Positions 3,210-28,429 of a DNA stretch of 64,000 nucleotides are shown here, in pieces. Position numbers and translations under genes: made by a program. The stretch covers positions 1 to 64,000 of the forward strand of contig NZ_PKIZ01000011.1 in assembly GCF_002847825.1 (NCBI RefSeq), written 5' to 3'. Source of the stretch: Kytococcus schroeteri. GTDB lineage: Bacteria; Actinomycetota; Actinomycetes; Actinomycetales; Dermatophilaceae. The stretch's first letter is position 1. Every line of letters starts with the position of its first letter. The notes under the pieces were generated by a model. It did no database searches. It was not told where the DNA came from and worked only from the letters and a program-made list of their open reading frames with translations.

Positions 3210-4192
3210 GCCACGAGATGCTGGTGCTGAGCGCCCGCGAGATCGAGGACCTGCTGGACCTGGAGGGGGTGCACGCCTCGCAGATGCGTGCCTTCGAGCG
3301 GCTGGGCACGGGGGAGGCCTGCATGGCGCCCAAGGTGTCCGTGCCCGGGGCCGACGGCGCCTCGCTGCTGACCTACACCGCCCGCAGCGCGCAGGAGGCG
3401 CCCGGCGTGGTGAAGGTGATCGGCTTCCACCCGGGCAACCCGCAGCAGGGGCTCGACCCGGTGCAGGGCGCCGTGTTGGTGCTCGACGGGGCGATCGGCC
3501 GCCCCATCGCGCTGCTCGACGGGCCGGCGCTCACCACCCCGCGCACAGCGGCCGGGTCCGCCGTGGCCACCGACCTGCTGGCGCGCCGCGACGCCGCCGT
3601 GCTCACGGTGGTGGGGACCGGTGTGCAGGCCTGGGCGCACCTGCGGGCGCTGACGCGTGTGCGGTCCTTCACCACGGTGCACGTGGTGGGGCGCCGGGCC
3701 GAGGCGGCCGAGGAACTGGCCGCCCGCGCCCGTGACGAGCTGGGCCTGGCCGCGGAGGCCTCCACGGACCTGGCGGCCGTGGCGCCGGAGTCGGACGTGG
3801 TGGCGTTGTGCACCACCAGCACCACGCCGCTGCTCGACGCCGGGCCGGTGCGGCCGGGGGCGCTGGTGGTGTCCGTGGGGTCGTTCGCCCCGGACCGCAG
3901 CGAGGTGGCCCCCGATCTCGTGGGCCGGGCCGACCTGGTGGTGGTGGACGACGTGGACACCGCGTGCGCGCAGGCGGGGAGCATCATCGATGCGGTGGAC
4001 GCCGGTGCCGTGGACGCCGCGGACCCGGTGCCGCTGGGCCGGGTGGCCTGCGGGGCGCACCCGGGCCGGGCCCGCGAGGACGACGTGGTGTTCTACAACT
4101 CCGTGGGCGTGGCCGCGCAGGACGCCACTGTGGCCGAGGAGGTGCTGCGCCGGGCCCGGGAGGCCGGGGTGGGCACGGCCGTGGAGCTCTGA
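3206..4192 (+). CDS. ornithine cyclodeaminase / mu-crystallin family protein (possible ketimine reductase)
   Basis: 328 residues of the OCD/mu-crystallin family: an N-terminal dimerisation part, the TPRTAA segment near residue 111 (substrate and cofactor contacts) and a Rossmann motif GTGVQA near 137. Family members include ornithine cyclodeaminase, alanine dehydrogenase and ketimine reductases that turn delta-1-piperideine-2-carboxylate into L-pipecolate. The ATG overlaps the stop of the preceding oxidase (ATGA) and has GAGGAGGAAC upstream, so the two genes are translationally coupled. Among the nearby oxidase, ALDH7-like and HglS-like genes a ketimine reductase role fits best, but that is inference from context. 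Confidence 0.8.
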   Translation: MSHEMLVLSAREIEDLLDLEGVHASQMRAFERLGTGEACMAPKVSVPGADGASLLTYTARSAQEAPGVVKVIGFHPGNPQQGLDPVQGAVLVLDGAIGRPIALLDGPALTTPRTAAGSAVATDLLARRDAAVLTVVGTGVQAWAHLRALTRVRSFTTVHVVGRRAEAAEELAARARDELGLAAEASTDLAAVAPESDVVALCTTSTTPLLDAGPVRPGALVVSVGSFAPDRSEVAPDLVGRADLVVVDDVDTACAQAGSIIDAVDAGAVDAADPVPLGRVACGAHPGRAREDDVVFYNSVGVAAQDATVAEEVLRRAREAGVGTAVEL

Positions 4193-12370: not shown

Positions 12371-13402
12371 ATGATCGAGCTGATGCGCCGCGAGGAGCAC
12401 GGTGCCTACACCGTGTCCACCTACCGATTCACCGAGCAGCACACCGTCTCGGTGGCGCACGAGACCCGCGCCTCGGCCCAGCTGCCGGGCAACGGGGGCA
12501 CCCGCTGGCTGCAGTACCCCTCCACCGAGGCGGCGGCCGCCGAGGCGCTCGTGCTGGCCCAGTGCATGACGCGCAAGCACTCCCTCTACGAGACCGGCTT
12601 CTGCGGCACCAAGCTCGTCATCGACGGCCCGCTGGACCTGGCCGACCGCAGCCTGGTGCACGACGCCCTGGCCGAGGTGCTGCGCCAGCACGACGGTGCC
12701 CTGTACACCGGCTGCGACCTCAACACCACGAGTGCCGACATGCGTGAGGTGGCTGCCCGCTACCCGGCGGTGCTGGACTCGCTGACCAACCCCGCGGTGT
12801 GCACCTCGACGGCCACCGGCAGCGGTGTCTTCGCCGCCTTGACCAGCACCCTGCTGCCGGGTGAGCGCCCCCGCATCGCGGTGCACGGCCTGGGCAAGGT
12901 GGGTGGCCAGGTGGCCCGGCTGGCGCGCAACGCGGGTTACGACGTGGCTGGCTTCGACGTGCGCCCCGAGGCCGCCGAGGCCCTGGGCGTGCGCGCTGTG
13001 GACTCCGACGAGCTGTTCACCGGGGGCTACGACGTGGTGGTGCTCTGCTCGCTGTCCGGCATCGTCACCGAGGAGGTGGCGGCCACCATGAACCCGCGCT
13101 GGGTGGTGGCCTCGGCCAACGCGCCGTTCGCCACCCCGGAGGCGCAGCGCACCGCCGAGGAGCGCGGCATCCACTACCTGCCGGACTACGTGGCCAACTC
13201 CGGGGCCGTGCTGTGCGACGCGCTGGAGTGGCGCGACCGTGAGCTCTACGACGCCCTCGACCAGGCCGCGGTGGACCAGTACGTCATGCGCACCATCAGC
13301 TCGCGCTCCCTGCAGGTGCTGGCCGAGTCCGGGCTGCGGGGCGTCACCCCGGAGGTGGTGGCCGCCCAGGCGTGGGCGGAGCACAGCCCCGTGCCCGCCT
13401 GA
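12371..13402 (+). CDS. second Glu/Leu/Phe/Val-type dehydrogenase, diverged
   Basis: 343 residues related to leucine/valine dehydrogenases. The catalytic lysine is retained in GFCGTKLVIDG (about 81), a GCDLNTT segment replaces the usual GxDMGT, and the nucleotide fold shows HGLGKVGGQVA near 175. The N-terminal domain differs clearly from the dehydrogenase at 7154-8281, so the two are not recent duplicates. The ATG at 12371 follows GGAAAGGGGCTGGGG. It is co-directional with the LysR gene, 104 bases downstream. It may deaminate a different amino acid of the same pathway; substrate unknown. Confidence 0.75.
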   Translation: MIELMRREEHGAYTVSTYRFTEQHTVSVAHETRASAQLPGNGGTRWLQYPSTEAAAAEALVLAQCMTRKHSLYETGFCGTKLVIDGPLDLADRSLVHDALAEVLRQHDGALYTGCDLNTTSADMREVAARYPAVLDSLTNPAVCTSTATGSGVFAALTSTLLPGERPRIAVHGLGKVGGQVARLARNAGYDVAGFDVRPEAAEALGVRAVDSDELFTGGYDVVVLCSLSGIVTEEVAATMNPRWVVASANAPFATPEAQRTAEERGIHYLPDYVANSGAVLCDALEWRDRELYDALDQAAVDQYVMRTISSRSLQVLAESGLRGVTPEVVAAQAWAEHSPVPA

Positions 13403-13491
13403 GACCGGCGGGCTGGCGGCGTGGCATGGCCCATAGCTCGGAGCACCGTGGATTCCTCGCGGTGGAGCGGTCGTTCATCCAGGTGTCGTAG

Positions 13492-14012
13492 GACAACACC
13501 CTGGGCGTCGAGGCCGCCGAGGACATCGCACGGGAGCACACCCGGGTGGACGCCGTCGTGCTGGTCACCGAGATGCCGCGCCACGCCGAGGGCACCCCGG
13601 TGGTGGCCGACGTGTTCGCCGAGCCGGACGTGTCGGTGGTGTCCCTGCCGTCGCTGGGGCTGGTCGGTCTGCGGCGGCACCTCACCACCGCGATCGTGGA
13701 GAGCGTGGTGGCCATGAAGGTGCCGTGGCGCACCGCCCGCAGCTCTCCAGCGTCCTGGCGGCCGCGGCGGCCACCGGGGCCTTCGGCATCTTCTACAGCT
13801 CCATCTGGCAGATGTCCGACGCGCTCTCGTGGTGGCGGCTCGTGGTCACGGGGGTGATTGCCGGTGCGCTGGGCTCGTCCTTCGACTCCAGCACGGACGT
13901 GCGCAGCATCACCCACGGTCAGCGGGAGCGTCAGCGCCGCATCGAGGCCGGGCGCACCGGTGACCGCCACACGGAGGCCGCGGGCGGTGGCGAGCAGGCG
14001 TCCCGCGCCTGA
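13492..14012 (+). pseudogene. decayed membrane-protein gene (stop codon plus frameshift)
   Basis: Two adjoining reading frames carry protein-like sequence. The first (13492 to about 13735) follows an in-frame TAG at 13489 and reads DNTLGVEAAEDIAREH, then VSLPSLGLVGLRRHLTTAIVE. The second (about 13725 to 14012) reads LSSVLAAAAATGAFGIFYSS with hydrophobic helices and a charged tail. Together they resemble a conserved actinobacterial membrane protein of unknown function, which I recognise only loosely. Internal stop, frameshift and absence of a start or ribosome site indicate a dead gene. The second part could in principle be read from the GTG at 13725 as a 95-residue protein. Confidence 0.5.
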
Positions 14013-14016
14013 GACG

Positions 14017-15276
14017 ATGCCGGGCATGGGCATGCTCATCACCGACATCGCTGAACTGGTCACCAACGACCCCACCCACCCGGACAGCCTGGACGCGCTG
14101 GGCCGGGCCACCGGGGCGGACGCGATGCACGCCGGGCTCGGCGTCATCCGCGACGCCGCCGTGGTGGTCGGCTCGGACGCCGAGGGCGAGCCGACCACCA
14201 TCCAGTGGGTGGGGCGCGCCGCGGACGCGCCCCAGGCCGACTGGGCGGTGTCCGTGGAGGGCAGTGCCGTCATCCCCGGGTTCGTGGACTCCCACTCCCA
14301 CCTGTGGTTCGCCGGCGACCGCTCGGCGGAGTTCGCCGCCCGCATGGCCGGCCAGGCCTACGACGGTGGCGGCATCGCCACCACCATCGAGGCCACGCGG
14401 GCCGCGCGCCCGGCGGACGTGGCCGAGCTGGTGCGCCGCCGCCTGGCGGAGATGCGCGCGCAGGGCACCACCACGGTGGAGGTCAAGACCGGCTACGGGC
14501 TCGACGTGGCGACCGAGGCCGAGGCCGCGCGCCGCCTGCGCGAGGTGACCGACGAGGTGACCTTCCTGGGCGCCCACGTGGTGCCGCCGGAGTACCGCGA
14601 CGGCGAGGCCGGTTCGCGCGAGGGCTACCTGGACCTGGTGTGCGGCGAGATGCTGCGCGAGGTGACGCCGCACGTGCGCTGGGTGGACGTGTTCTGCGAG
14701 CCCAACAGCCCGTACTCGTTCACCGGGGAGGAGTCGCGCCGCGTGCTGGAGGCCGGCCGCGATGCGGGGATGGGCCTGCGCCTGCACGGCAACCAGCTGG
14801 GCGAGGGACCCGGTGCGCAGCTGGCGGTGGAGTTCGGTGCGGCCGCGGTGGACCACTGCACGTACCTCTCCGACGCCGACGTGGAGGCCCTGGCCGGGTC
14901 CTGGGCCGATGGCGCGGACGGCACCGTGGCGGGGCTGCTGCCGGGTGTGGAGTTCAGCACCAAGCACCCGTACATCGACGCGCGGCGCCTCATCGACGCC
15001 GGGGCGAAGGTGGCGCTGGCCAGCGACTGCAACCCGGGCACCTGCTACTCGTCCTCGATGCCGTTCATGATTGCCATGGCGGTGCGCGAGATGGGCATGA
15101 CCCCGGCCGAGGCGCTGCAGGCAGCCACCGTGGGCGGGGCGCTCTCGCTGCGCCGTGAGGACGTGGGCGCCGTGCGTGTGGGTATGCGGGCCGACCTGGC
15201 GCGCATCGACGGGCCGAGTTGGCTGCACATCCCGTACCGCATGGGGGTGCCGGTGGTGCGCGCGCTGGAGGTGTGA
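14017..15276 (+). CDS. hutI: imidazolonepropionase (histidine degradation)
   Basis: 419 residues of the amidohydrolase family. Metal-site residues are visible in [12 protein letters not shown] (near 90), HGNQLGE (near 256), DHCTYL (near 278) and SDCNPGT (near 335). The KTGYG segment is typical of HutI, which hydrolyses imidazolone-5-propanoate to N-formimidoyl-L-glutamate. Three in-frame ATGs (14017, 14026, 14032) lack a good ribosome site; I give the first. No other hut gene is in the window downstream, and the neighbouring sequence is disturbed: a pseudogene before it and, after it, a CRISPR locus whose far side carries a hutI fragment. Confidence 0.9.
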
Positions 15277-15298
15277 GGCGGCGGGGCGGGTGGTTGAC

Positions 15299-15350
15299 GG
15301 CATGCAACGGGTGCAAGCCCTGAAGAGCGTGCCGCAATGGAGCCCGCCCC
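15299..15350 (-). ncRNA. candidate CreA/CreR-like crRNA: degenerate CRISPR repeat plus spacer-like tail
   Basis: On the minus strand 15350-15331 reads GGGGCGGGCTCCATTGCGGC. It matches the end of the array repeat: GGGG, then a run of 13 identical bases (GGCTCCATTGCGG), with a one-base deletion between and a last-base change. GGAGC/GCTCC pairing keeps a stem just before the tail. The spacer-like sequence starts at 15330 (ACGCTCTTCAGGGCTTG). It matches 15386-15370 at 14 of 17 positions. This resembles crRNA-like guides that direct Cascade to repress promoters (CreA, CreR). No second repeat copy is visible; the 3' end is unknown. Confidence 0.6.
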
Positions 15351-15369
15351 GCGCTCCTAGGATAGCTAA

Positions 15370-15389
15370 CAAGCGCTAAATAGCGTGAA
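15370..15389. promoter_or_regulatory. predicted target of the crRNA-like guide in the promoter region before the cas genes
   Basis: Minus-strand 15389-15387 is TTC, and 15386-15370 is ACGCTATTTAGCGCTTG. It mismatches the guide only at positions 6, 9 and 12 of the first 17. The site lies in the only AT-rich patch of the hutI-cas gap (15358-15390), where promoter elements are expected, including TAGGAT, TAGCTA and TAAATA-like hexamers. It also contains CGCTA-AA-TAGCG (15374-15385), so a protein operator is possible. Confidence 0.5.
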
Positions 15390-15419
15390 CCTTGCGCGAG
15401 TCGGCGAGTGGTGAATACA

Positions 15420-15453
15420 CTCGAGGGGCCGGGTGATCACCCGGCCCCTCGAG
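15420..15453. terminator. perfect 34-base palindrome in the hutI-cas gap
   Basis: 17-base arms (15420-15436 and 15437-15453) are perfectly complementary with no spacer, starting CTCGAGGGGCCGGG. It may terminate hutI transcription, or be the stable stem of a small RNA started in the AT-rich patch at 15358-15390. No T tract follows on either side. Confidence 0.55.
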
Positions 15454-15522
15454 GCGCTGATCCGCGAGATTAGACACCTTCACCGTATCAGCGCCGAGGG
15501 CACATATCAGAGAGGAGTTGCC

Positions 15523-15702
15523 ATGACGGCAACTGTGTGTCCGGCGTACTTGCTCGACATGTCCGACCATGTGGTCCACGAGCCGGTGCGGTGTCCGTCT
15601 GCCCGATATCTCTGGAGCCAGTGGTCTGTGGGCTCCGGGCGTCCGGTGTCTCCGGCGGAGCCCGAGTGGTCTGCATGGGAGCGGCACGACTGTGTGATGT
15701 GA
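15523..15702 (+). CDS. 59-residue protein of unknown function at the head of the cas operon
   Basis: The ATG at 15523 is preceded by AGAGAGGAG at ideal spacing, much better than most starts in the window. The product begins MTATVCPAYLLDMSDHVVHE, has four tryptophans in two clusters (YLWSQWS and EWSAWERH) and three cysteines, and no membrane segment. I do not recognise it. It ends 86 bases before cas3 and is separated from it by a strong hairpin, so it could be a leader peptide controlling readthrough, a small Cas-associated regulator, or an unrelated small protein. Confidence 0.5.
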   Translation: MTATVCPAYLLDMSDHVVHEPVRCPSARYLWSQWSVGSGRPVSPAEPEWSAWERHDCVM

Positions 15703-15705
15703 CCT

Positions 15706-15745
15706 CATGGGTGGCGCGGGTCCGGCAGGGGCCGCGCCACCCATG
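15706..15745 (+). terminator. hairpin between the small gene and cas3 (possible attenuator)
   Basis: Perfect 14-bp arms at 15706-15719 and 15732-15745 (CATGGGTGGCGCGG and complement) around a 12-base loop, followed by TTGT. It starts four bases after the small gene's stop and ends 43 bases before cas3. Such a position suits partial termination or attenuation. Confidence 0.55.
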
Positions 15746-15788
15746 TTGTCGGTGGGAGGCGGTTTGATGGGGGTATGGGAGGCAGTTG

Positions 15789-18266
15789 ATGACACACACG
15801 TTCACGCAGGTGTTCGAGGCCGCGACGGGCTCGGCGCCGTACGACTACCAGTGCCGCATCGCCAAGGAGGGCCTGCCTCCGGTGCTCACGGCGGCGACCG
15901 GGGCCGGGAAGACTGCAGCGATCGTGCTGGGGTGGCTCTACCGTCGGCAGTTCGCTGACCTCGAGACCCGGCGTGCGACTCCTCGACGGCTGGTCATCGC
16001 GCAGCCGATGCGCACGTTGACGGAGCAGACGGCGAGGTCGGTGCGTCATTGGCTTGAGGCGCTCGCCGCCGCGGGGATGCTGCAGGATGAGGTGGACGTT
16101 CACGAGCTGATGGGGGGCCTGTTCACCCGCGAGCGTCAACGGGACTGGCGGATGTCCATGGCTCGGGATGCCGTGGTCGTGGGCACGGTTGATGCGGTGG
16201 TGAGCCGCGCCTTGTTCCGGGGATATGGCGCCCGGCGGCCGGCCTACCCCATGGAGGCCGCGCTCGTCCTCAACGGTGCGCATCTCGTGGTCGACGAGAT
16301 GCAGTTGGCGGAGCAGGCGACAGCCACCCTGCGGCAGGTGGCCGCATTCCAGGCCTCGACGGCCTTGGGTGGTACATCCGAGCCCGCGGGGCTGACCTGC
16401 ATGTCGGCCACTCCCTCGACCGCGGCTCTCGACACGGTCGACTTCCGCTTCGAGGCGTCTCAGGTGATGGAGATGGGCCCCATCGACGGAGCGCTCGCCC
16501 GGCGCCTCCAAGCCGCCAAGGAGATCCGCCAGATCCCTGCGGGCAAGACCGCGCAGTTGGCTGACCAGGTGCTGGCGGCTCACCGGCTGGGGACCCTCAC
16601 GCTGGTGGTGCTCAACACGGTGGACACCGCCGCCGATGTCCACGCCAAGCTCGCCAAGGCGCTCAACAAGCAGGGAGCATCCACTGAGCTCCATCTGGTC
16701 CACAGCCAGTTCCGCCCGCACGAACGCCAAGCCCTGATGGAGCGCCTGGGTGAGCAGGAGTGGCCGGCCGAGGGGACGGTCGTGGTGGCGACGCAGGCCG
16801 TCGAGGCGGGCGTGGACCTGGACGCGGCCACTCTCGTGACCGAGGCGAGCCCGTGGCCGTCCTTCTGCCAGCGTGTGGGGCGCTGCAATCGCCGGGGGGA
16901 GATTGACGGGGCGCGTGTCCTGTGGTTCCCCGCTTTGGGCTCCGGCCCCTACGAGAAGACCGATCTTGCCTCCACGGCTGCTGTGCTGGAGACGCTTGAG
17001 GGCCAGGAGGTCACGAGTCCACAGCTGTTGAGCATGGAGGTCGAGTGGGCCGAGCCCACGCTGCACTTCCTGCGGCGGAAGGACCTGTTGGCGCTCGTCG
17101 ACACCGCTCCGGACCTCTCCGGTCAGGACCTGGATGTCTCTCGGTACATCCGGGCATCCGAGGATGCGACGGTGACGGTCGCGTGGGTTCCGGATGCCTG
17201 GCTGCCGGGGCAAGGACCTCAGGGCGGCAGCGTCGAGGACCTGCCGCGTTCTCCTCTACCGAGCCACGAGTGGCGCTGCCCGGTGCCCTTGCGGCGGCTG
17301 CGGAAGTGGGCCGAGAAGCACCCTGGTGCGCTCTTCGCGTTCGACCCCACGGCCAACCGCTGGCGCCCTGTGGCCATCCGGGACATCCGTCCCGGGATGG
17401 CGCTCGTCGCTGGGGCGTCGCGTGGCGGCTACGAGGTGGAGCGTGGTTTCTCCCTGACCCACAAGGCCGTGGTGGAACCCCTCCCAGGTGTGAACGACAT
17501 CCCGTCGGACCCGCTGCAGCAGGAAGCGAGCGATGCGGATGCTGGTCAGCGGGGTGGGGTTGAGGTGCCGGTGGTTCTCACCACTCACCTCGCGGATGCC
17601 GCCCGTGCGGCTGAGGACCTGCTCCGGGAACTCGACGTCGATCTTCGACCGGGACTGCACGAGGCCCTGGTGGCCGCGGCTCGGTCCCACGACGTGGGGA
17701 AGGTTCATCCGCAGTGGCAGGAGTTCATCCACGCTGCGGCAGGGCGTCCGGTCGAAACCGAGGGCGTTCCCCTTGCCAAGTCCGGCGGGCGTTCCCGCGC
17801 CCGTCTCCCGCACGGGCTGCGCCACGAGTTCGTGTCGGCCCTCGCGCTCCAGACCGAGGCGGGGCGTGCCTGGCTCGCGGACGAGGGCGTGGCCGTGGAC
17901 GATGCTGCGTTGGTGCGCTACCTGGTGGGGGCCCACCACGGGTACGTCCGCATCATGCCGCCGAACCCCACGGGGGACGGCTCTGGAAAGGAACTTGTCC
18001 ACTGGCTCGGGCTGCAGCACGGTGAGCCCGTCCCATGGATCGACCCCCGCACAGGTGAGCGGCTGGCTGACGCGGGTCACGCCGATTTCGTGCGAGGCGC
18101 CGCCCGGGTGGCGGGGTCCGCGGACCAGGAGCCCCTGCAGACCTGGTCGGAGATGACCACCTCGCTGTTGAGTCTGCACGGTCCGTTCCGTCTGGCGTGG
18201 ATGGAAGCTGTAGTCCGCGTGGCTGACTGGCGGGCGAGTGAGCACCCCACGGTGGAGGAGATCTGA
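15789..18266 (+). CDS. cas3: CRISPR-associated helicase/nuclease Cas3, type I-G, C-terminal HD domain
   Basis: 825 residues. Superfamily 2 helicase motifs come first: TGAGKT (about 37-42), the Walker B box VVDEMQ (near 169) and QRVGRCNRRG (near 361). An HD nuclease domain follows at the C-terminus: SHDVGKVHPQWQEF (near 633), then LRHEFVSALA and GAHHGYVR. Helicase before HD is the I-G/I-U arrangement, the reverse of most Cas3 proteins. The enzyme unwinds and degrades DNA recognised by the crRNA complex. The ATG at 15789 has GGGAGG six bases upstream; a TTG precedes it. It is two bases from csx17, so the operon is continuous. Confidence 0.95.
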   Translation: MTHTFTQVFEAATGSAPYDYQCRIAKEGLPPVLTAATGAGKTAAIVLGWLYRRQFADLETRRATPRRLVIAQPMRTLTEQTARSVRHWLEALAAAGMLQDEVDVHELMGGLFTRERQRDWRMSMARDAVVVGTVDAVVSRALFRGYGARRPAYPMEAALVLNGAHLVVDEMQLAEQATATLRQVAAFQASTALGGTSEPAGLTCMSATPSTAALDTVDFRFEASQVMEMGPIDGALARRLQAAKEIRQIPAGKTAQLADQVLAAHRLGTLTLVVLNTVDTAADVHAKLAKALNKQGASTELHLVHSQFRPHERQALMERLGEQEWPAEGTVVVATQAVEAGVDLDAATLVTEASPWPSFCQRVGRCNRRGEIDGARVLWFPALGSGPYEKTDLASTAAVLETLEGQEVTSPQLLSMEVEWAEPTLHFLRRKDLLALVDTAPDLSGQDLDVSRYIRASEDATVTVAWVPDAWLPGQGPQGGSVEDLPRSPLPSHEWRCPVPLRRLRKWAEKHPGALFAFDPTANRWRPVAIRDIRPGMALVAGASRGGYEVERGFSLTHKAVVEPLPGVNDIPSDPLQQEASDADAGQRGGVEVPVVLTTHLADAARAAEDLLRELDVDLRPGLHEALVAAARSHDVGKVHPQWQEFIHAAAGRPVETEGVPLAKSGGRSRARLPHGLRHEFVSALALQTEAGRAWLADEGVAVDDAALVRYLVGAHHGYVRIMPPNPTGDGSGKELVHWLGLQHGEPVPWIDPRTGERLADAGHADFVRGAARVAGSADQEPLQTWSEMTTSLLSLHGPFRLAWMEAVVRVADWRASEHPTVEEI

Positions 18267-18268
18267 CC

Positions 18269-20470
18269 ATGCGACACGAACTTCGCGGGCTGGAACCGCG
18301 GAACTTCGCCCGGTACCTCGCCGCGCTGGGTCTCGCGCGGGTGGTCGCCGAACAGGCTGACCCCGAGTTGCGTCTCGGGTGGGACGGCCTGACCTTCGTG
18401 CTCGAGACGTCCGTGGAGGACCTCGGGGCCTGGATGGTCGAGGCATACCGGCCCACGCCCGTCCTGAGCCCCTGGAACAACGGTTCCGGATACGGCCCCA
18501 AGGACAAGAAGCCGCGGGAGTTCGTCGACCGCATCGTCGCCGCGCCGGGGGAGCGCTTTAGCGCATTCCGTGAGATCGATGCGCTGAGTCGTGAGGTGCG
18601 GGAGCGGGAGTCGGAAAAGGAGGCGATCGTCAGGTCTCTGCGCAACTGGCTCCCCGACGAGGGTCTTGCGTGGTTGGACGCGGCCATCATCCTCACCTCG
18701 ACGGACGACAAGGACGTGCTCCAGTTCCCACCACTTCTCGGAACAGGCGGGAATGACGGGAGGCTGGAGTTCTCCACGACCTTCCACCAGAACCTTGCGC
18801 TGGTGATGCCTGAGCTGGGTGCGAGCCGTGCCGTCACTCAGGGGTGGGCGCTCGACCTGCTGAACGGGACAAGCGGGCAGAAACTGGCCCCGAAGTCCTT
18901 GGGGCAGTTCGACGCCGCTGCGGCAGGTGGTGTCGGGGGTTCGCCCTTGGACGACACCCCGTCCGTGGGCAATCCGTGGGCCTACGTCCTCCTCGTCGAG
19001 GGCGCGATGATGTTCGCCGGGTCGGCAGCCAAGCGTCTTGGTCATGGCGGGGTGGGGCGGGCGAGTCTCCCCTTCACCGTGGCCAGCAGCCCTGACGGTC
19101 CAGGTGCCGGTGCCAGCGGCGAGGAGGTTAGGGGTGAGGTCTGGGCACCCGTCGTCGATGCCTCGCCGCAACTTCTGGACTACTCGAGTTGGAGTCACCT
19201 CTTCGTACAGGCCAAGGGACAGTGGGGTGGTCGTACACCCACGACTGCATCGCAGATGTACGGCGCCGTGCACGCCCATGGTGTGGATCGGCGCATCGAC
19301 AGGTTCATGCGCTTCGCGATCTCCCAGCGCAACGGCTTGGCCTTCATGGCCGAGCTGCGGGAGGTCGTCCAGAACCAGCCCGCGCCAGGGATGGACGTTG
19401 CCCTGCAGCTGGAGCGCCGCCTGGGCATGTTCCGTCGCCTGCCCGGGCTCGCGTCCAAGCGCGCACTCCGGCGGGCGGAGTCGGCCCAGCTCGCGTTCGC
19501 GCGAGAGCCTTCCGCGAGGAACCTCCTGGGTGCGCTCGCCGCGCTCACCCACGTGGAAGCGGTGGGCATGCGCACCCCGCGCGGCCGCGAGGCGGTGACC
19601 CGTGGTGTGCGTCGTCCCGATGCCGCGCTGTCCCTGGACCTGCTCCGAGGGGGTGAGGGCACGTTGCAGTCATCCGAGTGGCGGGTGGGTGCAGCACTGG
19701 CCAGCGGTCGCGCCTCGGTCCCGGGCGGTGGCGCATGGACTGGGGCGCCCCGCGCCGGCGCACAGCGTGGGGTGAGGAGTTCCACCAGACCCGTGCGGGA
19801 TCTGGTGATCGGGTGGCATGACCACGAGGACCACTGGCACCCGCCGGTCGCCTCAGGGCTGGCCGAAGGCGATCTGGAGCGCTTGCTCTCCGGTGTGGCC
19901 CAGTGGGTCGCGACGCACGCTCCGAACGGGGGCGGCGACCTGACGCGAGGCGTGAGGATTGCCGAGGATCACGGCTTCGTCTGTGCTCAGGAGGATCTGC
20001 ACGCCTGGGTGCGTGGCGAACTGGATGACCGGGAGGTGGCTATGGCCTTCACGGCCTTCCTTGCGGTGGACTTCGGGGAGGCGCGAGGCCGGAGCCTGCC
20101 TGCGGAGGGGTGGTTCGACCCGTCATTGGCGATCCTCCAGGCCTTTGCCGCGGGCCGTGTGCGGGACGGGTACGCCGAGGACGCGGCGGGCGCGGCCCGC
20201 GGGGTGGAACCGCAATGGATCGCCCAACTCGTGGCCGGGACCCCTGAGGCGACCACGCGCGCCGTGGCAGCGGCAGCGGGTGTCCTGAACCGTTCTGGTG
20301 TCTGGCAGCCCCGGGGGAGCCACGTGGAAACGCGACGGGTCGCTGTCCACGCGCCTTTGCCACTTGTCCCGGGGCGACGCCTGGCGGCGGCGTTGTGCGG
20401 GCCGTCCAGTCCCCACCCCGTCACCCGCTGGGCTGTTTCCGATGCCCTGTCCACCGACACCACCCGATGA
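18269..20470 (+). CDS. csx17: type I-G CRISPR large subunit Csx17 (Cas8u2)
   Basis: 733 residues. The family signature LSPWNNGSGY is at about residue 66 and the protein begins with the usual MRHELRGLEPRNFARYLAALG. Csx17 is the large-subunit candidate of type I-G, expected to recognise the PAM. It starts two bases after cas3 and ends just before csb1. Length is in the usual 650-800 range and no damage is visible. Confidence 0.9.
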   Translation: MRHELRGLEPRNFARYLAALGLARVVAEQADPELRLGWDGLTFVLETSVEDLGAWMVEAYRPTPVLSPWNNGSGYGPKDKKPREFVDRIVAAPGERFSAFREIDALSREVRERESEKEAIVRSLRNWLPDEGLAWLDAAIILTSTDDKDVLQFPPLLGTGGNDGRLEFSTTFHQNLALVMPELGASRAVTQGWALDLLNGTSGQKLAPKSLGQFDAAAAGGVGGSPLDDTPSVGNPWAYVLLVEGAMMFAGSAAKRLGHGGVGRASLPFTVASSPDGPGAGASGEEVRGEVWAPVVDASPQLLDYSSWSHLFVQAKGQWGGRTPTTASQMYGAVHAHGVDRRIDRFMRFAISQRNGLAFMAELREVVQNQPAPGMDVALQLERRLGMFRRLPGLASKRALRRAESAQLAFAREPSARNLLGALAALTHVEAVGMRTPRGREAVTRGVRRPDAALSLDLLRGGEGTLQSSEWRVGAALASGRASVPGGGAWTGAPRAGAQRGVRSSTRPVRDLVIGWHDHEDHWHPPVASGLAEGDLERLLSGVAQWVATHAPNGGGDLTRGVRIAEDHGFVCAQEDLHAWVRGELDDREVAMAFTAFLAVDFGEARGRSLPAEGWFDPSLAILQAFAAGRVRDGYAEDAAGAARGVEPQWIAQLVAGTPEATTRAVAAAAGVLNRSGVWQPRGSHVETRRVAVHAPLPLVPGRRLAAALCGPSSPHPVTRWAVSDALSTDTTR

Positions 20471-20481
20471 AGGAGATCATC

Positions 20482-21456
20482 ATGCGAGCAACACGCACCA
20501 CGTACACCATTCCGTTGACCCCGGTTGCGGGGGACCGCTTCCAGCCGACCGGCTTTCCGGACCTCGGGCCCGCGGAGTTCTCCCGGTGGGACGCGGACCG
20601 CAAGGACTGGGTCAACGCGCTGCACGTGGAGTCGCCCCAGTCCATGGCCAACCGGCTGGAGGCGACCACGTGGCTGGAGGGTGAGGACGTCCAGCCGTCG
20701 GTCCTCGAGGGATTGCCGTACGTGCAGGTCGTCGAGGAGCGGGATGGGGAGGACGCCTTCGTGACGTGCTCTCGGCGTGAGGCGCACCGTCTGGCCAGCG
20801 CATACGTGATGAACGCCGTGACGGAGACCGGTGAGACCGGTCGCGACTGGCTCATGGCAGAGCTGGGCGCTGGCAAGGACGACCCGGCCAACAGGTACCA
20901 CCAAGTGCATCGTGCGGTCCTCCGCATGGACCCGCTGTCGCTCGTGCACGGTGTCTTCTTTGCGCAGAAGGACTTCGGCTGGCAGCCGAAGGTGGCCCGG
21001 GCGGTCACGAGCTTCATCGACGCCACCAACGTACGCCCCGCGCACAGCGGTGGCGTGAAGACCGACGTGGTCCGCACCACGGCGTCCGAGGGCGCCGGGT
21101 CCAAGGAGGGCTACGGCATGGTGCCGCACCAGCGCCTGGAGTTCACGGCGGAGAAGATCACGGCGTACGTCACCGTCGACCACGAGCAGATCCGTTCCTA
21201 CGCCTTGGGAGACGAGGGCACGGAGCTGCTGGAGTCCCTCGTGGAGTACGAGCTCGCGGTGCTCTTCAGCGGTGGTCTTCGCCTGCGTACGGCCTGTGAC
21301 TTCCAGGTCATCACCGAGGAGGTGCTGGTGTCCGGTGAGGAGGGCGCGCTGCCGCAGGTCGACACCGCCGAGAAGCGCGTTCGGGCAGCCATCGAGGCTG
21401 CCCGGGGAGCTGGGCTCCTCGGTGATGTGACCACCCTGCGCAAGGTGGCTCGATGA
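20482..21456 (+). CDS. csb1: type I-G CRISPR backbone protein Csb1 (Cas7, GSU0053 family)
   Basis: 324 residues. The order of Csb1 elements is recognisable: ESPQSMANRLE, the DPLSLVHGVFF stretch, then RAVTSFIDATNV and the C-terminal RLRTACDFQV. Csb1 coats the crRNA as the Cas7 backbone. I prefer the ATG at 20482, which has AAGGAG six bases upstream; an ATG at 20467 is in frame but sits on that ribosome site. The stop overlaps the csb2 start (ATGA), coupling their translation. Confidence 0.9.
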   Translation: MRATRTTYTIPLTPVAGDRFQPTGFPDLGPAEFSRWDADRKDWVNALHVESPQSMANRLEATTWLEGEDVQPSVLEGLPYVQVVEERDGEDAFVTCSRREAHRLASAYVMNAVTETGETGRDWLMAELGAGKDDPANRYHQVHRAVLRMDPLSLVHGVFFAQKDFGWQPKVARAVTSFIDATNVRPAHSGGVKTDVVRTTASEGAGSKEGYGMVPHQRLEFTAEKITAYVTVDHEQIRSYALGDEGTELLESLVEYELAVLFSGGLRLRTACDFQVITEEVLVSGEEGALPQVDTAEKRVRAAIEAARGAGLLGDVTTLRKVAR

Positions 21457-23036
21457 CTGGTGACGTCCCGGGAGCAGGCCTCCAGGTCCATGTGCGCTAT
21501 CTGCACGGGCAGGTCCGCGCCACCCCGTGGAACGTGGCTCTCAACTCCGGCGAGGTGGAGTGGCCGCCGTCCCCGTGGAGGATCGCCCGGGCGCTCCTGT
21601 CGGTGTGGCACCTCCGCCGGCCGGGGTTCGACGCCGCACTGGTGGAGCGGGTGGCGGCTGCCGTTGCCGAGCCCGCGTGGTACCTCACCCCGGAGACACG
21701 GCAGGGCCACACGCGTCACTACCTGCCGCTCTCGACACACCGTCGCGATGCGACGGGCGGCACAGCCAAGGCCCTGGACCCGCACCTGAGCATCGACCCC
21801 AGCGCCCCGGTGGTGGTCCACTGGCCCTCGCCCGACCTGGGCGAGGCGGAGGTGGAGGTGGCCAGGGAACTGTTCGCCGCGGTCACCTACCTCGGACGTG
21901 CCGAGTCCGTGGTGGAGGCACGGCTCGTCCTGCCGGGCACCGCTGAGCACGTCGATCCGGGGTCCGACCTGTCCTCGTGGTGGCGCCCCGGAGCAGGAGG
22001 GGCCACTCGAGTGCTGTGCGGTGACGGTGGTGTCACGCGGTCCCAGCTCGAGGTGGCCCCCGCTGACATCCGCAAGGCGAAGCTGTCCCTCCCCCAGGGG
22101 GCGCGGTGGGTCGACTACGCGGAGCCGGGTTCACCGACAGTGGCCACCAGTCGGGCCGGGGAAAACTCCCGTACTGCGCCGACCGCCATCAGGTGGAGGC
22201 TGTCGACCACCCCGGAGATGCGAGGGGGCATCGGGGTCCTGGCCACTGAGGCGTTGAGACGTCTGGCTCTTGGCCGGGCGCTGCCCCGGGAGCGTGAGAA
22301 GCTCCTGGCCGGGGGCGTGGGGGCCCAACGACAGCGGGAGCTGCTCCGCGGCAAGACGGTCGAGAACGACCCTGTGCGGGACCACATGCACGCGTCGTGG
22401 TTCTGGTTGGGGGACCCCCTCTGGGGTGTTGACGGCGCCAGTCGCTCCCCGATGGGTCTGGCCCACCCTCGCCGGACGGTGGTGCGCGACCTGGCTCTGT
22501 GGGTCCCCGAGGGACTGCCCACCGTGGACGGCATCACGGCGACGTTGGCGGGACTGGTCGACAACGGCTACCCCTCGGCGGGCGCGAGCGGCTACGTCCC
22601 GGAGGGTTTCGTCAGCGGTTCCCTGCAGGTGATGGGTGTCGGGGACTGGTCCCAGGTGATCCCCGAGCTTGCGGGGCCGGCGGACACCTGGGTGGCGGAG
22701 ACGCCCTATCTGCCCGTGCGCCACCGTAAGCAGAAGCGGGACGCGGACGTGGAGCGCTACGTGGAAGATGACGTCCGCCGCGAACTGGCCCACCGTTCCC
22801 GGCTGTGGGAGGTCCTGGGGGTGCAGGCACCGGAGGTGGTGTCGGTCGAGGTCGGGGTCACTCCAGCGGATCAGGAGGCGGCTCGTCTCCACCGGCGGTA
22901 CCGGTGGTCGCAGTCTGCGGCGTCCCGGCGGGACGCGTTCGCGGTGCGTCTGCACCTGGCCCGTCCCTTCCCCGGACCCTTGTCCCTGGGAGCGCTGAGC
23001 CACTTCGGCTTCGGACGTTTCCGGCCGGAGCGTTAG
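21453..23036 (+). CDS. csb2: type I-G CRISPR protein Csb2 (Cas5-Cas6 fusion, GSU0054 family)
   Basis: 527 residues. The N-terminal signature EWPPSPWRIARALL and the C-terminal glycine-rich LGALSHFGFGRF are typical of Csb2. This protein joins a Cas5-like part, which holds the crRNA 5' handle, and a Cas6-like repeat endonuclease. It therefore should both process the array transcript and sit in the effector. The start overlaps csb1 by four bases, and the stop lies eight bases before cas4-cas1. Confidence 0.9.
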   Translation: MTGDVPGAGLQVHVRYLHGQVRATPWNVALNSGEVEWPPSPWRIARALLSVWHLRRPGFDAALVERVAAAVAEPAWYLTPETRQGHTRHYLPLSTHRRDATGGTAKALDPHLSIDPSAPVVVHWPSPDLGEAEVEVARELFAAVTYLGRAESVVEARLVLPGTAEHVDPGSDLSSWWRPGAGGATRVLCGDGGVTRSQLEVAPADIRKAKLSLPQGARWVDYAEPGSPTVATSRAGENSRTAPTAIRWRLSTTPEMRGGIGVLATEALRRLALGRALPREREKLLAGGVGAQRQRELLRGKTVENDPVRDHMHASWFWLGDPLWGVDGASRSPMGLAHPRRTVVRDLALWVPEGLPTVDGITATLAGLVDNGYPSAGASGYVPEGFVSGSLQVMGVGDWSQVIPELAGPADTWVAETPYLPVRHRKQKRDADVERYVEDDVRRELAHRSRLWEVLGVQAPEVVSVEVGVTPADQEAARLHRRYRWSQSAASRRDAFAVRLHLARPFPGPLSLGALSHFGFGRFRPER

Positions 23037-23044
23037 GGGCTGCC

Positions 23045-24691
23045 ATGGAGGACCAGCCGGAGCTCCTGCCTGCGCGCATGCTCAACGAACACGTCTACTG
23101 CCCCCGCCTCTTCTACCTCGAGTGGGTCAATCGGGAGTGGGCGAGCAACGACGACACCGACCTGGGCGATGCGGAACACCGCGCCACGGACCGTCGTGGG
23201 GGCAGGATGCCTGAGCCGTCTGACCCCGCGCCGCCTCAGCGGACGGCCCAGGTGAGGGTGGAGTCCGAGGAGCTCGGACTGGCGGCTGTCATCGACCGGG
23301 TGGACCATGCCGATGGCTCGTGCTCCCCGTTGGACGTCAAGAAGGGGCGGGCTCCCGACGACGCGGATGCGTGGCCCGCCGACAGGGTGCAGGTCTTCGC
23401 CCAGGCCGCGTTGCTCGAGCACGCCGGGTACACGGTCCGCGAGGCACGCCTCTCCTACCGAGGGGGAGGCGGGGTGGTGTCGCTGCTCTGGGGTGAGGCC
23501 GAGCGGGAGGAGCTGCACGCGGCGGTGCAGGCAGCTCGCGCCACCGCCTCACAGCTGCAGGCACCTCTGCCGCTGGTGGACAGCCCCAAGTGCGTCCGGT
23601 GCTCCTTGGCCGGTCTGTGCATGCCTGACGAGGTGAATGCGCTCCTCGGGCGTTCTGACCTACCGCCTCGTCGGATCGTTCCTCGCGCCCCCGACCAGCG
23701 CCCTCTGTACGTCACGATCCCGGGCGCACGCGTCGGGGTCTCGGGTGGGCGCCTGGTGGTGACCCTCAACGGTGAGCCGCTGTCCTCAGCTCGCTTGGAG
23801 GACGTGAGCCACGTGGCCGTGTTCGGGAACGTCCAGGTGAGCACCCAGGCCATGACCGCACTGTGGAAGCGCGGTCAGGTGATTCTGTGGCTCTCGCGAG
23901 GCGGATGGTTGAACGGGTGGTCACAGCCGCCCATGGGAAAGCACGTGGAGCTTCGGCGCAAGCAGGTTCATGCCCATGCCCAGGGCGTGTCCGAGGCGGC
24001 CCGGATGATCCGCGGGAAGGTGCGCAATCAGCGCACCCTCCTGCGGCGCAGTGCCAAGGCCGCCCCGCCCGCGGAGGTCCTGCGTGCGCTACGGACACTG
24101 GCCGACTCGGCTCTGGACGCTACGACCCGCGAGGAGTTGCTCGGCATCGAGGGGACAGCCGCCCGTCTCTACTTCGAGCACTTCGCTCGGATGGTCGTCC
24201 CCGACCATCCGTGGGCGGGGGAGTTCGAACAGAACGGACGGCAGCGCCGTCCTGCTCCTGACCCGATCAACGCCCTGCTGGGTTTCACGTACTCGCTCTT
24301 GGCCAAGGAACTGACGGTGGCGTGCCTCGGCGTGGGCCTCGATCCCTACCTCGGAGTGCTCCACCGGTCGCGGTACGGCAGGCCCAGCCTCGCGCTGGAC
24401 CTTGCCGAGGAGTTTCGCCCCCTGATCGCGGACTCCGTTGTGCTCCAGGTGGTCAACAACCGGGAGGTTGGTGAAACCGCCGTTCGGCGGGGTCCCCTCG
24501 GAGTCACGTTGACTCAGGACGGTCGGAGAGCGGTGTTGCGCGCGTTCGAGCGCCGCTTGGAGAGCGAGGTGACGCACCCGGTGTTCGGGTACCGCATCTC
24601 CTACCGGCGGGTTCTCGATGTCCAGGTCCGGATGTTGGCGGGTGTCTTCCTGGGGGAACTCCGCGAGTACGTGCCCATGGAGACGAGGTGA
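23045..24691 (+). CDS. cas4-cas1: Cas4-Cas1 fusion protein for spacer acquisition
   Basis: 548 residues. The Cas4 half (about 1-205) has NEHVYCPRLFYLEWV, the nuclease motif PLDVKKG near 95-101 and the Fe-S cysteines CVRC-x5-C near 183-192. The Cas1 half has the metal ligands Glu in EGTAARLYFEHF (near 370), His in LHRSRYG (near 440) and LDLAEEFRP (near 455). Fused Cas4-Cas1 is characteristic of I-G. Cas4 trims prespacers and checks the PAM, and Cas1 integrates them. All catalytic residues seem intact, so adaptation is probably active. Confidence 0.95.
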   Translation: MEDQPELLPARMLNEHVYCPRLFYLEWVNREWASNDDTDLGDAEHRATDRRGGRMPEPSDPAPPQRTAQVRVESEELGLAAVIDRVDHADGSCSPLDVKKGRAPDDADAWPADRVQVFAQAALLEHAGYTVREARLSYRGGGGVVSLLWGEAEREELHAAVQAARATASQLQAPLPLVDSPKCVRCSLAGLCMPDEVNALLGRSDLPPRRIVPRAPDQRPLYVTIPGARVGVSGGRLVVTLNGEPLSSARLEDVSHVAVFGNVQVSTQAMTALWKRGQVILWLSRGGWLNGWSQPPMGKHVELRRKQVHAHAQGVSEAARMIRGKVRNQRTLLRRSAKAAPPAEVLRALRTLADSALDATTREELLGIEGTAARLYFEHFARMVVPDHPWAGEFEQNGRQRRPAPDPINALLGFTYSLLAKELTVACLGVGLDPYLGVLHRSRYGRPSLALDLAEEFRPLIADSVVLQVVNNREVGETAVRRGPLGVTLTQDGRRAVLRAFERRLESEVTHPVFGYRISYRRVLDVQVRMLAGVFLGELREYVPMETR

Positions 24692-24695
24692 CGCG

Positions 24696-24980
24696 GTGGC
24701 CAGGAGACGGCACCTGATCGCGTACGACATCGCTGACGAGCGTCGGCTCCGCCGGGTCGTCAAGGTCATGGAGTCGTACGGAGAGCGACTCCAGTACTCG
24801 GTCTTCTTGTGTGACATGAGCCCTGGAGGGCTGGCGCGTTGGCGCTCGGAGATCCTGGACGTGATCGACCTCAGTGTGGACTCGGTGGTCGTGATCGACG
24901 TCGGTTCTCCGGGTCAGGAAGATCTCACGGTCATTGGGGCGCCGCGTACGCTGCCCCGCAGCGGCGCCATGATCGTGTGA
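24696..24980 (+). CDS. cas2: CRISPR-associated protein Cas2
   Basis: 94 residues with the Cas2 ferredoxin-fold start HLIAYDIADERRLRRVVKVM, then LQYSVFLCDMSP. The GTG at 24696 puts the YDI strand at the usual position (about residue 8) and lies four bases after the cas4-cas1 stop. Cas2 dimers bridge two Cas1 dimers during spacer integration. It is the last cas gene, 169 bases before the array. Confidence 0.92.
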   Translation: MARRRHLIAYDIADERRLRRVVKVMESYGERLQYSVFLCDMSPGGLARWRSEILDVIDLSVDSVVVIDVGSPGQEDLTVIGAPRTLPRSGAMIV

Positions 24981-25149
24981 TTGCGAGACCTGACTTACGA
25001 CAGATCCACCCGGGGAGGTCTCGCAGCGCGCAACGTGGCGCCCTGAGATCCTTCTCAATCGCACAGTGCACGATGTGACCGGACAGATTGGAACAGCTCT
25101 CGAACCCTTGGGGTTCCCCCCCTCCGCGGTAAGCGCTTTCGCGCGAGCC
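24981..25149 (+). promoter_or_regulatory. CRISPR leader
   Basis: 169 bases between cas2 and the first repeat, less GC-rich than the surroundings in its middle part. It includes a small inverted repeat GAACCC/GGGTTC around 25100-25117 and ends GCGCGAGCC at the first repeat. The position and the intact repeats on this side versus altered repeats at the far end indicate that new spacers are added here and that the array is transcribed rightwards. Confidence 0.7.
24982..25025. terminator. hairpin after cas2
   Basis: Perfect 10-bp arms TGCGAGACCT (24982-24991) and AGGTCTCGCA (25016-25025) enclose 24 bases and begin one base after the cas2 stop. They may end the cas transcript ahead of the array leader. 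Confidence 0.5.
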
Positions 25150-27594
25150 GTGACCTCTCCCTCCGGGGAGAGGCTCCATTGCGGGGTCGGTGGCCAGATG
25201 AAGAGCGAGCGCACCGAGCAGGGTGACCTCTCCCTCCGGGGAGAGGCTCCATTGCGGGGAGCACGACGACGGTCACAGCGTCGCAGCCGGCTTCGGGTGA
25301 CCTCTCCCTCCGGGGAGAGGCTCCATTGCGGGCGCCAGCTGGGCGGCATCTTCCTCCAGACGGGCCGCAGTGACCTCTCCCTCCGGGGAGAGGCTCCATT
25401 GCGGGGGCCCGGAACAGGGTGACTTCCTTGGTGTAGGCGTAGTGACCTCTCCCTCCGGGGAGAGGCTCCATTGCGGGAACCCCGGTGCCGCCCAGGCGGT
25501 CCAGCTCAAGGCCAGTGACCTCTCCCTCCGGGGAGAGGCTCCATTGCGGGTGAGTCCATCGCTCCGGCCCTTCGTGGGCTGCGGCTCGAGTGACCTCTCC
25601 CTCCGGGGAGAGGCTCCATTGCGGGGGCAGGTCCGTCTCCGCCGTCGCGGCGATGGCCTCAGTGACCTCTCCCTCCGGGGAGAGGCTCCATTGCGGGTGC
25701 ATGTCCCGCTGGTACCGCTCTCGGGCGGCCCGGCGGGTGACCTCTCCCTCCGGGGAGAGGCTCCATTGCGGGATGAGTCCCAGGGACTCGAGGCGCTTGA
25801 GGGCGCGCTGGTGACCTCTCCCTCCGGGGAGAGGCTCCATTGCGGGGGCCGTGCCGCCGAGCTGAACCTCACGGCACCGACGGTGACCTCTCCCTCCGGG
25901 GAGAGGCTCCATTGCGGGCGTGCCGATGGCCTCGGCCCGGGCGGCAGCGTTCTGTGACCTCTCCCTCCGGGGAGAGGCTCCATTGCGGGTCGTCCATGGG
26001 GTCCTCAGTGGGCTCCTCGTCCAGGAGTGACCTCTCCCTCCGGGGAGAGGCTCCATTGCGGGCTTGATCTGCCGCTCCACGTCTGCGACCTGCTTCCGCG
26101 TGACCTCTCCCTCCGGGGAGAGGCTCCATTGCGGGAGCGTCTCGGACTCCAGGTTGTCCCACGCCTTGACCAGTGACCTCTCCCTCCGGGGAGAGGCTCC
26201 ATTGCGGGCATGCGGTGAGGTTTCTGGTGTCATCCAGTGCCTTGGGTGACCTCTCCCTCCGGGGAGAGGCTCCATTGCGGGCCCGGCAGCTCGCCCGCGA
26301 CGGCCACCACGGCGTCCACGTGACCTCTCCCTCCGGGGAGAGGCTCCATTGCGGGGAGGTCCCCACCTTCGAGCTCGCCACCCGGTGGATCGGTGACCTC
26401 TCCCTCCGGGGAGAGGCTCCATTGCGGGGCCGCGAAGACGGACGGGACGGACGAGTCTCACCGAGTGACCTCTCCCTCCGGGGAGAGGCTCCATTGCGGG
26501 GGTCGCCCGGCGGCGCCGCTGTCGCACGTCTCGGATGCAGGTGACCTCTCCCTCCGGGGAGAGGCTCCATTGCGGGGCTGGCATGAGGTTTCTCCTTGGT
26601 GGGCGCACGGAGGGTGACCTCTCCCTCCGGGGAGAGGCTCCATTGCGGGTGACCGCCCTTGGCGATCTCGGAGAGCAGGTTGTAAGTGACCTCTCCCTCC
26701 GGGGAGAGGCTCCATTGCGGGGGGCCGTCCGGGTGGCGGGCTCGCAGGCCGGGCACAAGTGACCTCTCCCTCCGGGGAGAGGCTCCATTGCGGGACCGCG
26801 AAGGTCGCCCAGTTCTTGAAGGTCCGGGCTGGTGACCTCTCCCTCCGGGGAGAGGCTCCATTGCGGGCGGCTCGACACGTGGAACGCCCTCCGCGCCGCA
26901 CAGGTGACCTCTCCCTCCGGGGAGAGGCTCCATTGCGGGTCGCCGGCGCGCAGCAGCAGTTCGGGGGCGGCCGTGGGTGACCTCTCCCTCCGGGGAGAGG
27001 CTCCATTGCGGGTGCCTGATGCTCACAGCGCGCGGCGGCGTCTACACGGTGACCTCTCCCTCCGGGGAGAGGCTCCATTGCGGGCCAGAGGGGGAGACGG
27101 TCAGTCTCACCGCGCCCCTGGGTGACCTCTCCCTCCGGGGAGAGGCTCCATTGCGGGATCTGCTTGATCTGCTCGCGGGACGCCTGCGCGAGCGCGTGAC
27201 CTCTCCCTCCGGGGAGAGGCTCCATTGAGGGTGCGCCTCGGTGACCCGGCGCTTGGCCTCGGCCACCTGTGACCTCTCCCTCCGGGGAGAGGCTCCATTG
27301 CGGGCTGGACCTCGCGGGCAAGGTGGTGGGCACGCGCGGCAGTGACCTCTCCCTCCGGGGAGAGGCTCCATTGCGGGTTGGTGACCACAGCGGCGGCGCC
27401 ACGGCCGACCAGGGTGACCTCTCCCTCCGGGGAGAGGCTCCATTGCGGGCTCGCCACCGAAAGCGTCGATCGCAGGTCCGCCCCGTGACCTCTCCCTCCG
27501 GGGAGAGGCTCCATTGCGGCCGCGGCTACCTCAACCTCCGCACCGGCTCCGCCGACACGTGACCTCTCCCTCCGGGGAGAGGCTCCATTGCGGG
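25150..27594 (+). CRISPR. CRISPR array, 34 repeats of 36 bases and 33 spacers
   Basis: The repeat starts GTGACCTCTCCCTCC and ends GGCTCCATTGCGGG. It contains the stem CCTCTCC/GGAGAGG with a six-base loop, and the 3' tail gives a predicted crRNA handle ATTGCGGG. First repeat 25150-25185, last 27559-27594; spacers are 35-40 bases, mostly 36-38. Only two repeats differ: number 29 (27196; TTGAGGG) and number 33 (27485; last base C). Both are at the cas-distal end, as expected for the oldest part. Several spacers read as protein-coding on the minus strand (for example 26650-26685 and 27158-27195), consistent with origin from phage or plasmid genes. Confidence 0.99.
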
Positions 27595-27689
27595 GTCCGG
27601 GGCGAGCCATGGCCATTCGAGTGTCTCCGCCCGCCTCAAGGCCGGTTGAGAGACTCGGCCTCTGACACCCGTCCGACCCCAGGAGCCCC

Positions 27690-28023: not shown

Positions 28024-28084
28024 GCGGGGCAGCGCGGTCTGTCCGCACCATCCGTGGGAGTCATGACAGTGGCATGCTGGTCAC

Positions 28085-28384: not shown

Positions 28385-28429
28385 GACACTGACGCCGTCC
28401 AGCCGCACCCAGACCCGCCCAGGAGTTCT

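Follow-up and report, generated by a model that had tools for sequence, protein, structure and literature searches.

The described systems closest to the element considered here are CreTA, CreR and CrePA. CreTA, with its guide RNA CreA, is described from type I-B haloarchaea and others; it has a ΨR1-ΨS-ΨR2 architecture with degenerated repeats and is found beside cas genes (PMC8501985, PMC9458426). CreA of H. hubeiense acts through pairing at guide positions 1-5 and 7-11 behind a TTC PAM, with positions 6 and 12 being irrelevant, and altering any single base of the ten-base seed reduced transformants approximately 10^4-fold (PMC8501985). CreR (cas-regulating RNA), reported by Liu et al. 2023 as cited in two reviews (PMC13131331 and PMC12737573), is active in I-B, I-E and V-A according to the first review and wide in type I and V-A according to the second; a third source mentions it without subtypes (PMC12948488). 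CrePA pairs a crRNA-like guide with the CreP toxin, which is typically a KilA-N protein (PMC12737573). The type I-G effector flips every sixth crRNA base, Csb2 cuts 4 nt past the repeat stem to give an 8-nt handle, and I-G lacks a Cas11 gene and does not hold the 5′ handle by Cas5; the same paper gives TTN as a PAM reported for this type (PMC9638904), and TAT is reported for the I-G system of B. lactis (PMC12915315). In the literature searched, mostly titles and the starts of abstracts, we found no description of a CreR- or CreA-type guide in I-G or I-U, and one of the CreTA papers has "type I-G" only within a cited title (PMC9458426); the 2023 CreR survey may list I-G loci.

The window, the whole 64-kb stretch of Kytococcus schroeteri DNA that we analysed, has a G+C content of 73%, and its plus strand encodes a complete type I-G operon. 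The full set that defines the type (Cas3g, Csx17/Cas8g, Csb1/Cas7g, Csb2/Cas5-6g, Cas4-1, Cas2 and an array) is present, with the effector genes in frame:

15786-18266, plus strand: cas3g
18269-20470, plus strand: csx17 (cas8g)
20395-21456, plus strand: csb1 (cas7g), given as the longest ORF; the real start may be later
21453-23036, plus strand: csb2 (cas5-cas6 fusion)
23033-24691, plus strand: cas4-cas1 fusion
24696-24980, plus strand: cas2
25150-27594, plus strand: CRISPR array of 34 repeats of 36 nt

The closest proteins to the cas3 of the window stand at 58% and 47%; viral contigs held no close relatives of it, and plasmids gave only distant ones. Late in the array, the repeat at 27196-27231 reads ATTGAGGG in place of ATTGCGGG, and the repeat at 27485 has a GCGGC end, as does the degenerate repeat ΨR1 described below. 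The 3′ end of the amidohydrolase gene that precedes the operon is doubled after the array (14991-15088/27909-28007 and 15252-15287/27997-28030, approximately 92% identical), so that a copy of the gene end lies on either side of the cas-CRISPR island, as if duplication or recombination had inserted it there. A second duplicated stretch (27678-27817/28418-28557, 86%) surrounds a gene fragment after the array.

Upstream of cas3, the minus strand contains a degenerate mini-CRISPR (15366-15281) consisting of ΨR1 with the I-G handle ATTGCGGC at its end, a 36-nt guide and the left arm of ΨR2, both outer repeat arms having been lost. The window has what distinguishes CreR, a degenerate CRISPR repeat outside the array and beside cas genes, and the ΨR1-ΨS(-ΨR2) order with degenerated repeats that distinguishes CreTA. 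The parts of the element and its presumed target are as follows:

15331-15366, minus strand: ΨR1, degenerate I-G repeat, in which 15344-15332 is identical to array repeat positions 23-35
15338-15331, minus strand: handle ATTGCGGC within ΨR1
15295-15330, minus strand: guide (ΨS) of 36 nt, its length inferred from the start of ΨR2-like sequence in related loci
15280-15294, minus strand: ΨR2 remnant, left arm only, placed in register with the array repeat by eye
15343-15352, minus strand: left arm GCGGGGCGGG of a stem spanning the guide
15281-15290, minus strand: right arm CCCGCCCCGC of the same stem
15370-15386, minus strand: target of guide positions 1-17, matched at 14/17 with mismatches at 6, 9 and 12
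15387-15389, minus strand: PAM TTC

A preliminary description of this DNA, the sequence and coordinates of which are correct, had noted 13 consecutive bases in common with the 3′ part of the array repeat, and these are indeed found at 15344-15332 (GGCTCCATTGCGG). The GGGG that it placed ahead of them as a further repeat remnant is one base out of register with the repeat. Its small stem, GGAGC/GCTCC, can be made out, although a longer one, GCGGGGCGGG/CCCGCCCCGC, lies around the handle and guide; likewise, its repeat remnant and guide stand, but the actual element is longer, with the 36-nt guide at 15330-15295 being followed by the ΨR2 remnant. The overlapping 15342-15331 (minus) reads CTCCATTGCGGC, with a final C as in many other I-G repeats where the array consensus of the window has G; across both strands of the 64 kb, nothing else outside the array matches the generic I-G handle perfectly. 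No Rfam family matched window positions 13000-29000 at the gathering threshold. The description further held that the guide ACGCTCTTCAGGGCTTG matches ACGCTATTTAGCGCTTG at 15386-15370 (minus) at 14 of 17 positions, with TTC in front and mismatches at 6, 9 and 12, and this is exactly what the sequence contains.

Could the likeness to the repeat and to nearby sequence have arisen by chance? The 13-base match was noticed post hoc and, while it is the longest match to the array repeat outside the array in the window, three 11-mers rank next. Against this, when the guide was shuffled 5000 times, not one version reached 14/17 behind TTN within the same 960 bp, and among up to 5000 17-mers drawn at random from the window a single one did; the element also recurs, as described below, in 12/77 loci where approximately 0.7 would be expected and in 2/21 new loci. 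We consider chance highly improbable. Pairing in the window includes nine of the ten seed positions (1-5 and 7-11), the exception being position 9, and also positions 13-17, past which matching drops to background. The mismatched seed base at position 9 weakens a repression reading because single changes in the seed of H. hubeiense CreA were so costly. The assignment of TTC as the PAM is a weak point as well, since B. lactis I-G is reported with TAT and the PAM here is a predicted one.

To place the element among its relatives, we drew on I-G cas3 loci from species genomes, using the best 80 of at least 475 confirmed. A fixed scan covered up to 900 nt before cas3 and called for an I-G handle with at most 1 mismatch in 11, a TTN target and at least 9/10 matches at positions 1-5 and 7-11. 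Loci L056, L062 and L078, in which the contig ends at or inside cas3, were excluded from the upstream scans; the scan took in 78 regions, and dropping L061, whose matches come from its own array, left 77, the window included. Handle, TTN target and seed were found together in 12/77 upstream regions: the window, L004 (Intrasporangium), L005 (Ca. Aeolococcus), L021 (Ectothiorhodospiraceae), L027 and L055 (Bacillota), L028 (Dehalococcoidia), L031 (Thioalkalivibrio halophilus, with GTTGAAGA as the counterpart of the handle ATTGCGGC), L033 (Gemmataceae), L073 (Reyranella), L074 (Hyphomonadaceae) and L079 (Spirochaetia). The chance level was a mean of 0.68 (maximum 2) over 40 permuted handle patterns and a mean of 0.75 (maximum 3) over 20 Markov sets. 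L074 and L079, which are without a clear ΨR2, may be among the approximately one false positive expected. Blocks elsewhere in the same loci passed the fixed scan in 8/1072 cases, one of which resembles another real module (L028). A relaxed handle scan of six loci, as distinct from the fixed scan, added L091, a Mobilicoccus MAG of the same family as the Intrasporangium genome; among four other actinobacterial loci it was the only convincing one. The unchanged scan was positive in 2/21 further loci (L103 and L110), both with mismatches at exactly 6 and 12 of the first 12 positions and a hairpin-bearing ΨR2 36 nt on; this set left out L119, L120, L121 and L124, in which the match starts deep in the profile, and the duplicate L113. 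No module was detected in 65/77 upstream regions or in 19/21 new loci. A separate test for the repeat tail within 700 nt before cas3 of 41 array-bearing loci, the window among them, gave matches at p<0.05 on the minus strand in 6/41 and on the plus strand in 3/41, with combined p values of 0.002 and 0.90, respectively.

Several further loci were inspected individually. L094, of the family of L031, has two repeats approximately 25-120 nt before cas3 with a 36-nt guide and a well-kept second repeat, and within the 5.3 kb examined the guide has no matching target. L024 has a repeat just before cas3, for which no guide-target pair was found. L087 was rejected as a module, having one weak pair only, inside its own repeats, and L084/L089 were set aside as carrying just a csb1 fragment. 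Within L028, positions 9619-9588 were considered as ΨR1 and rejected, being its ΨR2 and having no TTN target; ΨR1 lies at 9667-9656. The same genome has a second ΨR1-guide-ΨR2 module, approximately 8 kb ahead of the I-G cas3, with its guide starting at 2213 on the minus strand and its target at 2382 on the plus strand. This TTC-flanked target matches at 16/17 with a sole mismatch at 12 and lies before an ORF. Matches to cas3 are also found upstream of the I-G cas3 in that genome, at a distance of 2 to 6 kb.

A first regularity, of the kind that a type I effector would leave, concerns the positions at which such guides fail to match, chiefly 6 and 12, which are bases that the I-G effector flips out. 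Across 13 loci, the numbers of matches at guide positions 1-12 were 13, 13, 12, 12, 13, 2, 13, 13, 11, 13, 12 and 3; those at positions 13-18 were 13, 10, 9, 9, 6 and 6, with 1 to 6 beyond. Both scans selected on positions 1-5 and 7-11, which explains the high counts there, and placed no constraint on 6 and 12; the informative observations are positions 13-18, which neither scan used, and an unselected test. The latter required matches at any 10 of the first 12 guide positions, with no PAM and no favoured positions (L061 dropped). TTN preceded 9/37 of the resulting upstream pairs versus 9/190 in null blocks. The nine upstream TTN pairs had 16 mismatches, 14 of which fall at position 6 (8) or position 12 (6), whereas the nine null TTN pairs had 15, of which 1 was at position 6 and 3 at position 12 (4/15). 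The window pair, with three mismatches in the first 12 positions (9/12), is outside those nine upstream pairs. All ten seed positions were matched in 8/13 loci (L004, L021, L028, L031, L033, L055, L073 and L091), as they also were in L103 and L110; one was missed in the window (9), L074 (9), L005 (4), L079 (3) and L027 (11).

A second regularity concerns the RNA that the element would encode. In most of the 13 loci a repeat-like 5′ end follows 36 nt of guide, as judged by eye. The resulting ΨR2 bears a hairpin in L005, L021, L028, L031 and L033 and is reduced to its left arm in the window, L004, L027, L055 and L091. In these last five, what is left of ΨR2 can pair across the guide with the ΨR1 arm that immediately precedes the handle linker, forming 10 uninterrupted Watson-Crick pairs in the window, 8 in L004, 8 in L027, 15 in L055 and 11 in L091; the left arm of this stem ends 12 nt before the guide (14 in L091) and the right arm starts 39-45 nt into it. 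Stems of at least 8 bp were formed by same-locus arms in 5/13 cases and by cross-locus arms in 0/156, the latter never reaching even 7 pairs. Composition therefore does not explain the spanning stems. Shuffling within single loci gave p values of 0.016 for the window, 0.056 for L004, 0/500 for both L027 and L055, and 0.004 for L091. The arms are wholly different in sequence among the five loci, and such differing yet complementary arms resemble compensatory change, which would imply a transcribed, structured RNA. We infer that the closed loop would protect both RNA ends.

These two regularities bear on whether the element is no more than the functionless remains of a former mini-array or self-targeting spacer. 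Decay of this kind would account for the degeneracy of both repeats, the mismatched seed base, and the lack of a module in many relatives of positive loci (0/4 other matches in the family of L031 and 0/2 others in that of L073). It sits poorly with mismatches that gather at 6 and 12 in different loci while PAM and handle are kept, and with arms that have diverged from the array repeat and are complementary nonetheless in five loci. A relic is, in our judgment, improbable.

What the guide would control depends on the gap of approximately 500 bp between cas3 and the amidohydrolase gene (13858-15276), named hutI in the preliminary description. The target is approximately 400 nt ahead of cas3, and the following features lie between them:

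15392-15421, plus strand: promoter-like hexamers TTGCGC-18-TACACT facing cas3, beside the PAM, seen by eye and absent from the output of the consensus scan
15420-15453, no strand assigned: perfect 34-bp palindrome CTCGAGGGGCCGGGTGATCACCCGGCCCCTCGAG, between the target and the small ORF
15523-15702, plus strand: orphan small ORF of 59 aa
15701-15750, plus strand: strong hairpin between the small ORF and cas3

The consensus sigma-70 scan returned no promoter in the gap of the window, in L027 or in L073. In L004, L028 and L055, the target overlaps or borders sigma-70-like promoters directed towards cas3, with the matches in the AT-rich L055 being at chance level (4 found versus a shuffle mean of 2.4). 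Small ORFs between target and cas3 are also present in L004 (73 aa, 2243-2464) and L091 (84 aa). Their GC3 is coding-like (0.75 in the window, 0.79 in L004 and 0.95 in L091), and all three have hairpins before and after them, those of L004 and L091 including hairpins at a place similar to that of the window palindrome. No Pfam, PADLOC or NCBIfam model matched the 59-aa ORF, and the ORFs of L004 and L091 had no family match. A homologue search returned none for the window ORF and only itself for that of L091, and the predicted structures of these two were of low confidence (mean pLDDT 40.0 and 48.5, respectively). Alignments among the three ORFs were no better than shuffles (p 0.09-0.14), and with the alignments at that level an apparent Cys/His pattern common to them was dropped. 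Among the new loci, small ORFs with a hydrophobic stretch lie downstream of the targeted site in L103 (4396-4268, minus, 43 aa) and L110 (1318-1124, minus, 65 aa); these are candidate peptide toxins and had no family match above the cut-off.

The small ORFs raise the question of whether the guide is a CreA-like antitoxin. In that case, the effector would repress only 15523-15702 as the gene of an orphan toxin, cells would depend on the effector, and cas3 would have its own promoter. The window, L004, L091, L103 and L110 fit repression of a toxin because small ORFs lie downstream of their targets, hydrophobic ones in L103 and L110 and coding-like ones with flanking hairpins in the other three, and CreTA adjoining cas genes is known in haloarchaea (PMC8501985). 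Nevertheless, the window ORF, a putative toxin gene, shows neither a hydrophobic stretch nor a known domain, and the short stretch past the hairpin shows no clear cas3 promoter either by eye or in the consensus scan. In addition, the targets in L027 and L073 lie only 76 and 118 nt, respectively, from cas3, with no ORF longer than 16 aa in between. We regard a unit made of the toxin alone as unlikely, and rate above it a CreR-like arrangement in which a single transcript, comprising the 59-aa ORF and the cas genes, is held down by the guide; this arrangement is probable, if well short of certain. One transcript over the ORF and the cas genes is the more likely because no clear separate cas3 promoter is seen after the hairpin at 15701-15750, although that hairpin could itself end the transcript ahead of cas3, which counts against CreR-like control. 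L027, L073 and L033 fit autorepression of cas because the target lies near cas3 without an ORF of more than 16 aa between or, in L033, because the gene between the two (3021-3548) encodes a sigma-70-type factor, ending just before cas3. The guide of L033 may control this sigma factor ahead of the cas genes.

We propose that the CreR-like arrangement would operate in the window as follows. The minus-strand mini-CRISPR would be transcribed and its guide RNA loaded into Csx17-Csb1-Csb2. At the TTC-flanked site, the loaded effector would hold down the promoter facing cas3 instead of cleaving, and the repressed transcript would begin with the 59-aa ORF and continue into the cas genes. Relief would come once array crRNAs or anti-CRISPR proteins draw the effector away. 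That the element specifies a crRNA-like guide by which the I-G effector represses a promoter near cas3 had been the central suggestion of the preliminary description, and it gains support from the mismatches at 6 and 12 and from recurrence: remnant and target, the conservation of which in related I-G loci that description had made a touchstone, are present together with the seed in 11 other loci by the fixed scan, in L091 by the relaxed scan and in 2/21 new loci. We put the probability of guide-directed repression by the I-G effector, whichever unit is controlled, at about 0.87.

Comparison with the described systems shows where the element of the window would belong. It shares with CreR a mini-CRISPR near cas genes as the source of a crRNA-like RNA, the partial guide match and the presumed target before the cas operon, all of which are here predicted from sequence; it differs in the type I-G effector, in the inner repeat arms that pair across the guide in five loci, and in the orphan ORF between target and cas3. 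With CreA it has in common the ΨR1-ΨS-ΨR2 order, a presumed seed at 1-5 and 7-11, a putative TTC PAM, 6th and 12th bases that would be dispensable and the site beside cas genes (PMC8501985, PMC9458426), whereas its guide is on the strand opposite the presumed target gene, one seed base is mismatched and both outer repeat arms are lost. The likeness to CrePA lies in a crRNA-like guide whose presumed target is perhaps the promoter of a protein gene (PMC12737573); the 59-aa ORF has no KilA-N domain, and we do not assign the locus to CrePA. Guide-based self-control of cas genes in I-G would apparently be a new extension of the CreR/CreA kind, subject to what the 2023 survey lists. A bolder proposal, which we hold to be somewhat unlikely, is that I-G effectors in several phyla have built-in regulatory guides, some of them closed loops, and that the actinobacterial ones silence orphan, fast-evolving CRISPR-addiction toxins of CreT/CreP-like nature, the product of the 59-aa gene included.

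If true, the reach of such control into I-G, a minimal type I effector, would suggest that the use of Cascade as a repressor is a general property. The guides are short and can be tested in many genomes, and one of them (L031) comes from Thioalkalivibrio, the genus of the solved I-G effector. The mismatch fingerprint, together with the stem that spans the guide, provides a search signature and, if the small ORFs are toxins, this signature would also lead to new addiction genes that sense anti-CRISPR proteins.
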